IMG/VR virus record: IMGVR_UViG_3300020421_001669
Coordinates: 1 to 64,000 of that record
Reading direction: 5' to 3' (one strand)
DNA from: a virus
Length of the DNA stretch: 64,000 nucleotides
This document shows positions 18,287 to 31,633 of the stretch, in pieces (within the stretch, counting starts at the first letter, position 1; every line of letters begins with the position of its first letter). A model generated the notes under the pieces. That model saw only the letters and a program-made list of their open reading frames with translations, did not search any database and was not told where the DNA came from. Both the position numbers and the translations under genes were made by a program.

Positions 18287-19816
18287 ATGGCAGAAATTAT
18301 GGATGGAATTATATTTGGCGGACAATTAGAAGACTTTGCTGGTTCAATACACAAAGAAGATTCTAAAAACATTTCAATGAGAAGGTCTTCTGGTGGTCAC
18401 AAGATTGCCACCTTTTTGAGGCAGAATGGTTATGAAATTGATGTAGTAGATTATGTCCATCGCTGGAAAATAGAACAACTCAAACAATATCTAAAACCAA
18501 TCGCAAAGGATTGTAAGTTCTTTGGATTTGGTTCTACATTCTTTTTAGACAGTCCAGTTGTCAAAGAACTGGTTGCGTGGTTAAAAGAAGAGTATCCTAA
18601 TGTACCGCGTGTCGCTGGTAGTCAAAATGATAGCATGCGTAGTTTGGACATGGATTGGTATGTCTATGGTTATGGTGAAAATGCCATGTTAGAACTACTC
18701 AAACATTTTGATGGTGGGCCAGAACCCATACACTACAATAAAGTAATTAACTGTTATGTAAATTACAAATCATTTCCAAAAGAAGATTTAACAGTATCCT
18801 ATCAAGAAAGAGATTTTGTCAATCCACGCGAAATCATGATGATAGAGTTTGCCCGTGGGTGTAAGTTTAAATGTAAGTTTTGTAGTTTCCCGATACTAGG
18901 TGTTAAGGGGGATTACTCTCGTACAGCACAAAGCGTATATGATGAGATGTCAGAAAACTATGACAAGTGGGGTATAGAACACTATCTTGTTATTGACGAA
19001 ACATTTAATGATAGTTCAGAGAAAATAGAAAAGTTTGCTAATGCAATAGAGAAACTTCCTTTCCAACCAAAGATGACCGCATTTATTCGTGGTGACTTAC
19101 TTGCTTCGCGTCCTAGAGATTGGGACAATCTAATTAAGATGGGAATTACATCTCATTTCTATGGTATTGAAAGTATGAACCACAAGGCAGCTAAATCGGT
19201 TGGTAAGGGGATGAATACTGGTAGGATACAAGATGGTCTATTAGAAGTAAAAGAATACTTTCAGACAAATGCTGGATACTACAAGGGTCTAATATCCTTG
19301 ATTGCTGGTTTGCCTTATGAGACTATTGATAGTTTACGCGAGACAGTTAGATGGTGTTCTGAATACTGGTCTGACCAGAGTTATCATATGAACATATTGA
19401 TGATTAAGTTATTAGGTAAACCATCTCTCAATCATAACTCAGAATTTGATTTGAATTGGAAAGATTACGGTTACAGGGAGTCCCAGTTCCCCAAAGATGA
19501 TATAAAGTGGGATATGAGTATCAATCCGTTCTATAAGTTCCTCTATGAGTATGTGGCGACCTCTGGCGAGTACATTATGTGGGAAAATGACCATACTAAC
19601 ATGTATGATTGTTTTAAATTCTGCGTAGAAGAGTTTAGTCAAGCTAAGTTGAAGAACGCATTAGACCCATTTATGTATGATAAGTTCTTTATTGACCCAA
19701 CTGTAAAGTGGAGTGATTTTGCTACTGAGACACATATGGAAAGGAGAGAATCCCATATCTTAGAACATGTGGATGGATATATTCAGTCTAAACTTAATCT
19801 TGCATCAAGAGTTTAG
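18287..19816 (+). CDS. Radical SAM protein with N-terminal cobalamin-binding-like fold
   Basis: A 509-residue radical SAM protein of the B12-type layout: a Rossmann-like N-terminal region (about residues 1-150) followed by FARGCKFKCKFC, the CxxxCxxC cluster at C192, C196 and C199, then VIDETFND and YGIESMNHKAA, which are typical of this group. The DxHxxG cobalamin signature is not obvious, so the vitamin may not be bound. The substrate is unknown. ATG 18287 directly follows the terminator T run and ATG 18299 is an alternative; neither has a ribosome site outside the hairpin. The 3' end overlaps the convergent tape-measure gene by 23 bases. Confidence 0.85.
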   Translation: MAEIMDGIIFGGQLEDFAGSIHKEDSKNISMRRSSGGHKIATFLRQNGYEIDVVDYVHRWKIEQLKQYLKPIAKDCKFFGFGSTFFLDSPVVKELVAWLKEEYPNVPRVAGSQNDSMRSLDMDWYVYGYGENAMLELLKHFDGGPEPIHYNKVINCYVNYKSFPKEDLTVSYQERDFVNPREIMMIEFARGCKFKCKFCSFPILGVKGDYSRTAQSVYDEMSENYDKWGIEHYLVIDETFNDSSEKIEKFANAIEKLPFQPKMTAFIRGDLLASRPRDWDNLIKMGITSHFYGIESMNHKAAKSVGKGMNTGRIQDGLLEVKEYFQTNAGYYKGLISLIAGLPYETIDSLRETVRWCSEYWSDQSYHMNILMIKLLGKPSLNHNSEFDLNWKDYGYRESQFPKDDIKWDMSINPFYKFLYEYVATSGEYIMWENDHTNMYDCFKFCVEEFSQAKLKNALDPFMYDKFFIDPTVKWSDFATETHMERRESHILEHVDGYIQSKLNLASRV

Positions 19817-21596
19817 TTTCTGGGTCAACCATTTGACTACTGGTATCTCTGTAGACACCAATTTTCTCTACCTTAGTTGCACCGACACCACTTCCTGTAC
19901 TTGGCATGGTTGCAGTTCTTATTTCACTTGCTAATTGATTTTGTGAGGCAGCAGCTGCGTCTGCGCTTCTTCCAAACTCTGCGGCTGAAGCTTCTGAGGT
20001 AGCCATATTAATTGTTGTTGGCCCAGTGGGTGATGTTCCAGCTTGAGTTGATTCAATTGGTGCCATATCAGCAGCTGAAGTTTCAGTGATATTCATTTTT
20101 AAAGTACCATCTGGGTTATGCGTGGCACCATATTGCTCATCCCATGATGCTTGTTTCTTTTCCATTGCCTTAACATTACCACCAGTTAAGCCTGGGTTAT
20201 CCATACTTGGTCTTGGTGGAGCAGTTCCATCACCTTCCATTAATTTCGCCAATTTCTCCTGTACAAAGTCCATTATCATCCCATAGTTTTCTTTATACGC
20301 TGGGAAGTCTCCAACAGCAGCAAGAGATGCGTGGGCATCGTGTGGTCTTGGATCTTCTTCAGTACCAAATGCATCGTTGTATATGTCTCTTGCCAATAAA
20401 CCAGCATCAATAGTAAGTGACCCAGCTACACTTGGAACAAACATACCAGCTGCCTCTGCACCAGCACCAGCAAAGTCTCCTTCAAATAATCGTGAAATTG
20501 CAAATCCTAACCCAGCACCAGCGCCGATAATTGGAATTGCTTTTAATCCAAATTTACCAACATGTTTTGTAAATGATTTTGCCATCATTTTGGGGTCTGG
20601 TTTTGGTAGTTTTGGTTTTTTCATTTTTACATCAACATTATCGTTAGCTGACGCAACTGGAGTTGAATTGATTGTTGAACGGGCATCAATGGTATCTATA
20701 GGTGGAGTATTAACTCTTGGAGCATCTATAGGTTGTTTTGTATTAATGTCGATAACATTACTAGTAGGTGATTTTGGTTGACCAGCAGCATTTAGTGATG
20801 ATGCAACGGATTTACTAGGTGGTTTTGGTAGTTTGCTAGCCAGTGTAGTTACACCTTTGCCAACAGCTTGAAGCGCGGGTTTCAACATATTGTCTAATGT
20901 TTCTGTTAAAATGGGAACACCAGACATTATCTTACCAAGGTTTTTTGTTATTCTTTGACTGAGGTCACCGAACACACCACCCAGTTCTTCTAACGATTCA
21001 TCAACTCTATTTCTTAACGCTTCTGATGCTTCTTCAGCTTTTTCTCCACCACCTAAATTATCAAAAAGACCCATCGCTTGAGCAGCTGCCAATCCTCCGA
21101 GTCCAGCAGCCATTCCACTACTCATGCCGCTTCCTTTTCCTCCGCCCATACCAAGTCTTGCCCTAATAGAATTTTCTGACTCAACTGCTGGCCCAGAAGC
21201 AGCACTCAAACCAGAAGCCATAACTGCGGTGTCTCCTTTTATATCAACTAATACTTTTTCGATATCTTGTAATTGATTTACTACTGGGTCTCTACTAGAA
21301 ACATCTGACAATGTAGATGTGGCTTGTGATGCTGATACTCCTGTTCCTGCTGATGATATTCCACCACCCATTCCAGCACCAGCAAATTTTCTTTGTCCGC
21401 CACCACCGATTCCACCAGCCTCTCCAGGCGCGTTTATTGGTTCTGGAGCACCAAATACAGCATCTCCTATTCCATATCCTAAAGCAGTACCACCGACTTG
21501 TCTTCCAAAACCTCCAGATGCTCTAACGCCAGATTGGGCTACTCCTTTGCCGCCTCCCAAGAGTTTTTGACCAAATCTAGTAAAAAATCCTATCAA
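19794..21596 (-). CDS. Tape-measure-like tail protein
   Basis: A 600-residue protein, close in length to T4 gp29 (590). Residues 1-80 are glycine- and alanine-rich, residues 95-125 have a helical segment, and a hydrophobic glycine-rich stretch (PIIGAGAGLGFAI) lies near residues 355-367, as in many tape measures. The start is TTG at 21596, eight bases after GGAGA; no ATG is available in frame. It is placed immediately downstream of two gp26-type genes and a frameshift extension, the position of the tape measure in G/GT-type tail modules. Tape-measure identity rests on context, length and composition rather than a recognised domain. Confidence 0.6.
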   Translation of the reverse strand: MIGFFTRFGQKLLGGGKGVAQSGVRASGGFGRQVGGTALGYGIGDAVFGAPEPINAPGEAGGIGGGGQRKFAGAGMGGGISSAGTGVSASQATSTLSDVSSRDPVVNQLQDIEKVLVDIKGDTAVMASGLSAASGPAVESENSIRARLGMGGGKGSGMSSGMAAGLGGLAAAQAMGLFDNLGGGEKAEEASEALRNRVDESLEELGGVFGDLSQRITKNLGKIMSGVPILTETLDNMLKPALQAVGKGVTTLASKLPKPPSKSVASSLNAAGQPKSPTSNVIDINTKQPIDAPRVNTPPIDTIDARSTINSTPVASANDNVDVKMKKPKLPKPDPKMMAKSFTKHVGKFGLKAIPIIGAGAGLGFAISRLFEGDFAGAGAEAAGMFVPSVAGSLTIDAGLLARDIYNDAFGTEEDPRPHDAHASLAAVGDFPAYKENYGMIMDFVQEKLAKLMEGDGTAPPRPSMDNPGLTGGNVKAMEKKQASWDEQYGATHNPDGTLKMNITETSAADMAPIESTQAGTSPTGPTTINMATSEASAAEFGRSADAAAASQNQLASEIRTATMPSTGSGVGATKVEKIGVYRDTSSQMVDPETKLLMQD

Positions 21597-21597
21597 C

Positions 21598-21795
21598 TTA
21601 ATTTCTCCATTTATTAGACTTCATATCGTCTGCTTTTTTCTTTAAATGTTGGACTAACATTGATATATACACTTGCCTTTCCCACGGAACCCAACTCTCT
21701 ATTTCTGTTAAACTATATTTATGTTCTTGCATAAGTAGAAAGTTCGTTTTAAAGTAATTTTCTAAATTCTCATGAAAAAGGCTTATCCGAAAAAA
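21598..21795 (-). CDS. -1 frameshift extension of the gp26-type protein (GT-like)
   Basis: In the -1 frame after the slippery heptamer, 63 codons are open from 21789 to a TAA at 21600-21598, two bases before the tape-measure start. The peptide contains MQEHKYSLTEIESWVPWERQ and continues with a helical, lysine-rich end, a style typical of the T part of GT tail chaperones. There is no well-placed independent start: the only in-frame ATG upstream of the conserved part is internal (LLMQEHKY). The natural reading is a 295-residue fusion made by frameshifting. If made separately from that internal ATG it would be about 44 residues. Confidence 0.7.
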   Translation of the reverse strand, partial: FFRISLFHENLENYFKTNFLLMQEHKYSLTEIESWVPWERQVYISMLVQHLKKKADDMKSNKWRN

Positions 21796-22484
21796 TCGTA
21801 ATACCCATTCAAAAAGGTTTTGTTATTCTTTTCGCATTTCGGACAACTATATTCAATCTCGCTTTCTATCACGGGCATTGACTCAAAAAACTTTTTAAAT
21901 GCCTTGAATTGTTCTGAAGTAAGGTTATCAATAAATTCTTCCTTATCTTCTGGACTCAAATCTTCAGATTCAATGATACTGTCTCCAGCAAATATTTTGT
22001 CAATACATAGTTCCGCGACCTTAAATACATCCCCTTCTGTTTCTGACTTACCTAACATCATCATTTCTTTTACATTTGGATATCTCATTTCAACTAATAC
22101 ATCCTCAGAAAGTCTTACTTCTTTTTCATGACCTTCTGTTTCATGTAATTTAAAATTACCCAAATCAATAGTGATGTCGATAGCATTTTCACAATGACCG
22201 CAGGCTAGTCTCGCCTCTACTGTTTCTGATATTGAAACCTTCCTTAGATTTAAAAAGATATTTTGCATATCAAACACTGGAAGTTCATCTCCAGAAATTT
22301 CACCAAATGAACAGTTCGTGATAATTTGTTGAGTAGCCTTTATCATCTCATCTATATCTTTGGTTTCGTTTGCTAATATAAGCAGTTTCTCCTCTTTAAC
22401 TAGGAAAGGTCTGAATTTTACACTCTTATTAAGAGAGTGTACGCGAACATCTATCAGAGGATGTTCTGTCTGTGGTAGTGCCAT
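21783..22484 (-). CDS. 26: gp26-type baseplate/tail-chaperone protein, copy B
   Basis: A 233-residue protein of the T4 base plate protein family (gp26, PF12322 type). I choose ATG 22484 (MALPQTEHPL) because it aligns with copy A and follows GGAGG. Two CxxC pairs (ACGHCEN near residue 95 and SCPKCEK near residue 219) suggest a zinc-ribbon-like element. The last codons TTT TTC GGA TAA contain the slippery heptamer that leads to the extension at 21598. It lies between its paralogue and the tape measure, so a role as tail-assembly chaperone is likely. Confidence 0.75.
   Translation of the reverse strand: MALPQTEHPLIDVRVHSLNKSVKFRPFLVKEEKLLILANETKDIDEMIKATQQIITNCSFGEISGDELPVFDMQNIFLNLRKVSISETVEARLACGHCENAIDITIDLGNFKLHETEGHEKEVRLSEDVLVEMRYPNVKEMMMLGKSETEGDVFKVAELCIDKIFAGDSIIESEDLSPEDKEEFIDNLTSEQFKAFKKFFESMPVIESEIEYSCPKCEKNNKTFLNGYYDFFG
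21789..21795 (-). promoter_or_regulatory. Slippery heptamer T TTT TTC for -1 frameshift
   Basis: Read on the minus strand, bases 21795 to 21789 are T TTT TTC in the zero frame of the gp26-type gene, the X XXY YYZ form. Slipping back one base keeps two Phe codons and enters the open frame beginning CGG ATA AGC. The zero-frame stop follows one codon later. No strong hairpin or upstream Shine-Dalgarno stimulator is obvious nearby. Confidence 0.7.
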
Positions 22485-23199: not shown

Positions 23200-23832
23200 T
23201 TAATCAAGCCAATCGTTAATACTATTTGCTACCTTGTTGTTTATAGCATTTCTAATACTTCCCTTACGGAAGTTAAATATACCAAACAATCTTTCTGCCT
23301 CACCAGCTGAAACTCCCCTAGAAGTCCATCTTCTAAAGGCAAATGTTACATTAACTCTCACAATACCCTCAGCACTTTGACCCATTGGTAGAATGTTCAT
23401 AAGTCTTGGAAATGCATCATATAGTTTCCATCGCGTGACTCTGTTGTCTTCTCTATCTAGGGTGTAAACTTCTACTGAACCAGTGTAATCTTCTGGAAAT
23501 GCCACTTCTTTGGATAGTGGGTCTGCAATGAGAGTCATCCAATTTTCAAAGTAGGTTCTTGCGTCCCAGTTATCGTCACAGAAAAATGTAAACGCTGCTG
23601 TATCACCAAAGTATTCTATACCATGCGCTCTTTGTTCTGTCCAGTGAGATATTTTTGTAGGTGTCCACATAATTTGCAGGCCTGGTATTTGTGCTTCCTC
23701 GCACAATAATGATACTTCTCTATCAGTCAAGAAATTAGCAGGACTGTTAATTAGTACCTCAAATCTATTTGACCTTGCGAGGTCATTCTTTCTGACTTTA
23801 GATATGAAGTCATTTGTTTTAAAATATGCCAT
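23200..23832 (-). CDS. 54: Tail-tube-family protein, probably baseplate tube initiator gp54
   Basis: A 210-residue protein opening with FISKVRKNDLARSNRFEVLI, the pattern of the T4 gp19/gp54 tube family, and with IPGLQIMWTP and YTGSVEVYTLDRE further on, both typical. The main tube gene gp19 normally follows gp18, which lies at the right end of this window, so this copy among baseplate genes is more likely gp54, the protein that starts tube polymerisation on the gp48 cap. It is shorter than T4 gp54 (320 residues), so the assignment within the family is uncertain. Start overlaps the previous stop (TAATG). Confidence 0.7.
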   Translation of the reverse strand: MAYFKTNDFISKVRKNDLARSNRFEVLINSPANFLTDREVSLLCEEAQIPGLQIMWTPTKISHWTEQRAHGIEYFGDTAAFTFFCDDNWDARTYFENWMTLIADPLSKEVAFPEDYTGSVEVYTLDREDNRVTRWKLYDAFPRLMNILPMGQSAEGIVRVNVTFAFRRWTSRGVSAGEAERLFGIFNFRKGSIRNAINNKVANSINDWLD

Positions 23833-31237: not shown

Positions 31238-31633
31238 ATGATTAAGAAACCTACTACAATATACAAAGATTTCGATTTGAGTTTTACAAAAAACCCAAAT
31301 ACAAAGGATATTGCTCGTAGAGTAGATGTTCAGGCGGTCAAGCAAGCATTAAAAAGTTTATTGTTGACTCAGTATTATGAAAAACCATTTCAACCCAACT
31401 TTGGTTCACCAATCAGAGGATTGTTGTTTCAACCAGTTGACTTGGTAACAGGAACTAATCTTGCTACTGAAATAAAAAGATGTATTCAAAACTTTGAGAA
31501 AAGAGTTGTAGTAGAGGATGTAGAAGTATATCCAGAAGTAGACCAGAACGCATTTAGATGTAAAATATTTTTCTACATAAGAGGTATAAAAAATTTACAA
31601 GAACTTGGAATAGTATTAGAGAGGGTAAGATAG
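31238..31633 (+). CDS. 25: Baseplate wedge protein gp25
   Basis: A 131-residue protein, almost the same length as T4 gp25 (132). It shows the EPR-like core of the family in modified form (FQPNFGSPIRGLLF near residues 51-64), preceded by QALKSLLLTQ and followed by FEKRVVVEDVEV. gp25 clamps the gp6-gp7 wedge and starts sheath assembly. No ribosome site is apparent because a late-type motif occupies that position. It overlaps gp6 by three bases. Confidence 0.92.
   Translation: MIKKPTTIYKDFDLSFTKNPNTKDIARRVDVQAVKQALKSLLLTQYYEKPFQPNFGSPIRGLLFQPVDLVTGTNLATEIKRCIQNFEKRVVVEDVEVYPEVDQNAFRCKIFFYIRGIKNLQELGIVLERVR

Follow-up and report, generated by a model that had tools for sequence, protein, structure and literature searches.

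A gp26-type tail assembly chaperone gene with a probable programmed -1 frameshift into a gp51-like extension in a marine T4-like virus

Introduction

Frameshifted tail assembly chaperones, among them the gpG/gpGT pair of phage lambda, were reportedly described by Xu, Hendrix and Duda in 2004. Among the proteins of phage T4, gp26 and gp51 appear in the list of hub assembly chaperones, gp51 being essential for assembly and absent from the particle (PMC3004832). The tail assembly chaperone (TAC) genes of T4-like phages were assigned by Vladimirov, Gautam and Davidson (2022, Virology 566:9-15), as cited in PMC10885494 and PMC12846349. From this work, the first of these papers cites that some T4-like phages possess a short gene and a fused long gene in place of frameshifting, and the second that -1 signals in the form of poly-T sites are known from the TAC-N genes of T4-like phages. 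Earlier, gp51 of cyanophages and vibriophages had been reported as short by about 200 N-terminal residues, and gp51 as missing in Aeh1 (Sullivan et al. 2010, PMC3037559). The mechanism is already known in outline for T4-like phages and, since Vladimirov et al. (2022) had assigned their TAC genes, the locus described below is a new member rather than a new principle.

Here, we analysed a window of 64,000 nucleotides, which is part of a 161,406-base IMG/VR virus record (IMGVR_UViG_3300020421_001669). An initial annotation of this window had proposed that a programmed -1 frameshift fuses a gp26-type protein to a 63-residue extension ahead of the tape measure gene, and that in T4-like phages the gp26-type proteins are the tail assembly chaperones. 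The latter statement agrees with Vladimirov et al. (2022), as cited in the two papers above, and with the listing of the T4 proteins (PMC3004832). Beyond what was then proposed, the extension belongs to an annotated family, the C-terminus of gp51, and the frameshift idea is already published for T4-like phages.

Results

Layout of the locus

The gp26-type gene and its extension lie entirely on the minus strand (Table 1), the strand having been absent from the initial annotation. The gp26-type gene ends with the codons GAT (21797-21795) TTT TTC (21791-21789) GGA TAA, while the -1 frame opens with CGG ATA AGC, so that the joined product would count 232 + 63 = 295 residues. The heptamer one codon ahead of the gp26-type stop and the -1 frame open for exactly 63 sense codons were both found as first described. 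The same holds for the lack of a good start: there is none near the head of the extension, since the first ATG, GTG or TTG is an ATG at codon 20 of the -1 frame. The order of the tail tube-like gene, the chaperone and the gene at the tape measure position is the canonical one, with the same position in HTVC008M. As for the tape measure itself, the 600-residue ORF downstream is assigned from its position; it stands in the right place, but a BLASTP comparison with the proteins at the tape measure position of HTVC008M and nt-1 gave nothing significant.

Table 1. Coordinates of the features of the chaperone locus in the window.
Feature	Position	Strand	Details
Tail tube-like protein, upstream	23200..23832	-	PHROG 45, E 2.4e-33
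Tandem gp26-type paralogue, 227 aa	22499..23182	-	PF12322, E 1.3e-37; no heptamer, no extension
gp26-type gene, short form (TAC-N)	21783..22484	-	ATG 22484 to TAA 21785-21783, 233 aa; PF12322 / PHROG 150
Shine-Dalgarno-like stretch GAATGGG (weak), ahead of the heptamer	21804..21810	-	anti-Shine-Dalgarno pairing energy about -3.8 kcal/mol
Slippery heptamer T TTT TTC, frame-0 phase ..T TTT TTC	21789..21795	-	sequence; T TTT TTN in 106/106 relatives
Frame-0 stop TAA	21783..21785	-	one sense codon after the heptamer
-1 frame extension, 63 sense codons	21598..21789	-	CGG 21789 to AAT 21601, TAA 21600-21598; homologue of the gp51 C-terminus
600-aa ORF at the tape measure position	19794..21596	-	TTG start at 21596, one base past the stop of the extension

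Protein families and predicted structures

The gp26-type protein of the window matches PF12322 with an E-value of 1.6e-56 (191.9 bits against a curated cut-off of 24.5) and phrog_150 with an E-value of 2.9e-59; PF12322 was matched by all 55 members of set A3. The extension matches phrog_634 (E 3.8e-25), a family annotated as baseplate hub assembly catalyst (gp51), which identifies it as a known protein segment, the C-terminal part of T4 gp51. Other Pfam and PHROG matches, outside gp26 and gp51, were weak and were set aside.

AlphaFold2 produced confident models for gp26 (pLDDT 89) and for a T4-like gp51 (pLDDT 88). Searched against the PDB with Foldseek, the gp26 model had no match at E <= 0.001, the HK97 chaperone 2ob9 appearing at E 2.8, and the T4-like gp51 model had no significant match among solved structures; a profile search with gp26 likewise found no solved relative. 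A structural tie to known chaperones was thus discarded as support, and membership in the chaperones rests on layout, position and literature rather than on fold. Separately, gp26 of the window carries two Cys-x-x-Cys pairs (residues 95-98 and 217-220), and several relatives give weak zinc-ribbon matches, which suggests a putative metal-binding site.

Conservation of the heptamer and selection on the extension

A slippery heptamer alone is cheap evidence, as the 55 main ORFs of the window contain 107 in-frame heptamers of slippery type. A -1 reading extends more than 100 nt past the end of the ORF at only two sites of the window, the gp26 heptamer and one pair of adjacent heptamers, the latter simply entering a large overlapping ORF that has its own start. 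An A AAA AAT is present at position 31587 on the plus strand, near the end of a 131-residue ORF (31238-31633), and its -1 reading enters the large overlapping ORF downstream; as the latter is equipped with a start, this heptamer is probably a coincidence.

We collected 106 gp26 loci with complete 3' ends (92 after dereplication) by similarity to gp26 or to the extension of the window, so that they are not a blind sample. The sources are IMG/VR contigs and records of phages infecting several groups of hosts (Synechococcus, Pelagibacter, Methylophilales, Vibrio, Aeromonas, Stenotrophomonas, Rhizobium, Agrobacterium and Pseudoalteromonas). An alignment of the Vibrio, Aeromonas and Rhizobium gp26 was too divergent to serve for scanning the collection. 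The initial annotation had suggested aligning relatives to see whether the heptamer and the -1 frame are conserved together, and they are: T TTT TTN occurs in frame near the gp26 stop in every one of the 106 loci (N being C in 82, T in 19, A in 4 and G in 1), and at the junctions inspected the extension lies in the -1 frame.

Across the 92 dereplicated loci, the residue preceding the two phenylalanines can be S, D, N, H, F, R, A or G, whereas every codon for it has T as third base (naive log10 P -20, with codon use elsewhere in these genes as reference), and the first Phe codon is always TTT and never TTC (naive log10 P -13, same reference); these P values ignore shared ancestry, and relatedness makes the true figures less extreme. 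Within the extension, pairs of close relatives gave synonymous to nonsynonymous-type counts of 9:0, 12:3, 17:3 and 12:3 in the -1 frame, with a dN/dS of 0-0.06, a pattern that is absent in the other two frames. The -1 frame, and it alone, is under purifying selection. Chance is out of the question, given a heptamer in 106 of 106 loci, junctions that on inspection had their extension in the -1 frame, and mostly synonymous change.

Natural controls in T4 and in the tandem paralogue

In T4 and its near relatives, gp51 consists of a full gp26-type protein followed by the same extension in frame, fused at the equivalent residue; PHROG 150 covers both parts of gp51 and PHROG 634 covers its end. T4 and RB43 encode the short and long forms separately. 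In close relatives of T4, gp26 still has the EFF residues, but with FF spelled TTC TTT, so that the heptamer has disappeared from a gene that does not need it; in more distant T4-like gp26 proteins, FF is lost as well.

The tandem paralogue of the window provides a second control. It has no extension and no heptamer either, which we count in favour of the frameshift reading; its last codons are TCG TTT TCG GAA TAG in the window, relatives having GGA TTT TTC. This copy is restricted to the clade of the window virus (loci L005-L017 of our collection), and in the tree its members group together with full support, on a long branch within the lineage, which makes it a lineage-specific duplication of single origin.

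Possible stimulators of slippage

In 72 of 92 relatives, a stretch some 7-13 nt ahead of the heptamer pairs strongly with the 3' end of 16S rRNA, against a background of 14%, the mean energy being -6.8 kcal/mol in the 92 relatives and -0.1 in the background. This Shine-Dalgarno-like element is strong and GGAGGG-like in most relatives; in the window it is only the weak GAATGGG, at about -3.8 kcal/mol. In relatives, it coincides with a Leu-Glu-Gly motif, for which the Glu codon is GAG in 46 of 56 cases (26% elsewhere, P 1e-18) and the Leu codon ends in G in 46 of 67 (27% elsewhere, P 1e-12), both P values again taking no account of shared ancestry. Codon choice thus indicates that the element is selected at synonymous sites in the relatives. 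The dnaX gene possesses an internal Shine-Dalgarno stimulator upstream of its slip site, and the element of the relatives resembles it, spacing included. The 60 nt downstream of the window heptamer showed no unusual RNA folding (-5.1 kcal/mol, the gene averaging -8.3) and the mean z across relatives was -0.43, so a downstream stem-loop made an unimpressive candidate in this minimum free energy test, in the window and in relatives alike.

Alternative starts, exceptions and annotation of relatives

An early start in the -1 frame is possible in 25 of 87 relatives, all 25 of which keep the heptamer; the first six codons of the extension contain no ATG, GTG or TTG in the other 62, window included. 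In nt-1, Ps15, P10VF and XG4, the heptamer is present together with an ATG that shares bases with the stop (TAATG or TGATG). These four phages are the reason to consider that some relatives make both a frameshift fusion and a stand-alone extension reinitiated at the overlapping ATG. We judge this unlikely, and it is excluded for the window, which has no overlapping start.

It is more improbable still that the extension is a separate small gene (gp51), translated from a start of its own or through stop-start reinitiation following gp26. Besides the 25 early starts, some of which overlap the stop as in those four phages, this reading has on its side the way in which the region is annotated in most GenBank records. 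None of the 12 annotated records of frameshift type that we examined joins gp26 and the extension: seven (S-PM2, Melnitz, nt-1, HTVC008M, Ps15, P10VF and S-SKS1) give it as a separate CDS, called gene 51 in S-PM2 and in many other records where it is annotated separately, and five (S-H9-1, Atu_ph04, avDM12-TAAL, Aeh1 and S-SSM4) leave it unannotated. In Aeromonas phage Aeh1 (L031, 3704-3882), the unannotated gp51 extension lies in the -1 frame after T TTT TTC. However, the 62 relatives without an early start argue against a separate gene, and initiation at the first ATG of the window would cost the first 19 residues, which are conserved. Moreover, the heptamer is retained even in relatives that have a start, the Shine-Dalgarno-like element is some 20 nt or more from any such start, its spacing fitting that of the dnaX stimulator instead, and in T4 the extension is produced within a fusion protein. 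In the window, where there is no early start, we reject a stand-alone gene.

Two kinds of relatives had been named at the outset as evidence that would count against a frameshift, those with a separate, well-started extension and those that lose the heptamer while keeping both frames. The first exist to the extent of the 25 early starts, yet every one of these has the heptamer. The second were seen as well: 16 Ackermannviridae loci (L028, 3780-3960; L124-L138) have the extension in the -1 frame after an invariant overlap, GAG/GAA ATT TTC ATT TAA (TTTTTGAAATTG), with neither a canonical heptamer nor an ATG near the head of the extension, and Vibrio phage D531, with the overlap CTT TTC AAG TAATGG, keeps both frames without the canonical heptamer. 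Both are exceptions at the edge of the family.

Finally, we give practically no credit to the idea that the heptamer does no more than encode two conserved phenylalanines and that the -1 reading comes from an error in sequencing or from a fusion in decay. In its favour, the protein does conserve FF, and these genes mostly use TTT for Phe (72%), but independent contigs and isolates agree in 106 of 106 cases, the -1 frame has the low dN/dS given above, and a protein-level cause is ruled out by the T-ending codon found whatever the residue, by a first Phe that is never TTC and by the FF that gp26 of T4's close relatives retains as TTC TTT.

Discussion

The programmed -1 frameshift proposed initially is strongly supported by comparative sequence, through the two frames, the heptamer and its conservation, the selection on the -1 frame and the in-frame equivalent in T4 gp51. 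The locus is very probably a tail assembly chaperone gene that gives both TAC-N and TAC-NC. We infer the slippage itself to proceed as follows. Most ribosomes would stop at the TAA and release the 233-residue gp26 (TAC-N), whereas at the heptamer a minority would shift from TTT TTC onto TTT TTT and translate a further 63 codons. The slipped product would be the 295-residue gp26-gp51 fusion (TAC-NC), with the junction FF|R and the predicted junction peptide GYYDFFRISLFHENLENYFK. The short and long forms might then recruit the tape measure protein, or coat it, while the hub and tail tube assemble, as gpG and gpGT do in lambda.

The consequence for annotation is that the 'gp51' of a broad set of T4-like marine phages is most likely the frameshifted tail of gp26 and not a stand-alone gene. 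The roughly 200 N-terminal residues reported as missing from cyanophage and vibriophage gp51 would be accounted for because frameshifting supplies the extension as a tail of gp26, and the gp51 reported missing from Aeh1 is explained by the extension left unannotated in its -1 frame.

The newer details are the tandem paralogue of the clade, the conserved Shine-Dalgarno-like element upstream of the heptamer and the Ackermannviridae overlap lacking a canonical heptamer, the clade-specific duplication of gp26 being the most novel. We advance, as a tentative idea somewhat short of even chances, that the chaperone system of this clade is split in a third way, the frameshifting gene making both forms and the fast-diverged tandem copy supplying a second, dedicated short form. 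If so, the paralogue would be a lineage-specific duplication distinct from that of T4, with the frameshift still in place, and its short form could fix the proportion of short to long form or give rise to a mixed chaperone ring. The frameshift state, the two-gene state of T4 and the duplicated state together offer a series in which to ask how the ratio of short to long chaperone is set in phages.

Compared with known systems, the locus would share with lambda gpG/gpGT a short form and a -1 frameshifted long form, encoded here between a tail tube-like gene and the gene at the tape measure position; the heptamer differs, and the N-terminal domain of gp26 is larger and carries the CxxC pairs. Nor did the gp26 model give a detectable structural match to a solved chaperone, that of HK97 included. 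The TAC locus of phage Adele (Vandenendeviridae/Andersonviridae, PMC12846349) likewise has a TAC-N gene that ends in a conserved poly-T site for -1 frameshifting, and its extension is commonly annotated, wrongly, as intergenic or as a gene of its own; its motif is GTTTTT, and the comparison is one of layout, not of a protein relationship between that TAC and gp26. With gp26 and gp51 of T4 (Straboviridae), the window has in common the PF12322/PHROG 150 domain and the PHROG 634 extension, joined at the equivalent residue, but T4 uses two genes without frameshift or heptamer whereas a single gene would encode both forms in the window. The same layout, heptamer, -1 frame and position are found in the cyanophages S-PM2, S-H9-1 and S-SSM4 and in the pelagiphage HTVC008M, from which the window virus is distinguished by its additional tandem gp26 paralogue and by its weaker Shine-Dalgarno-like element.
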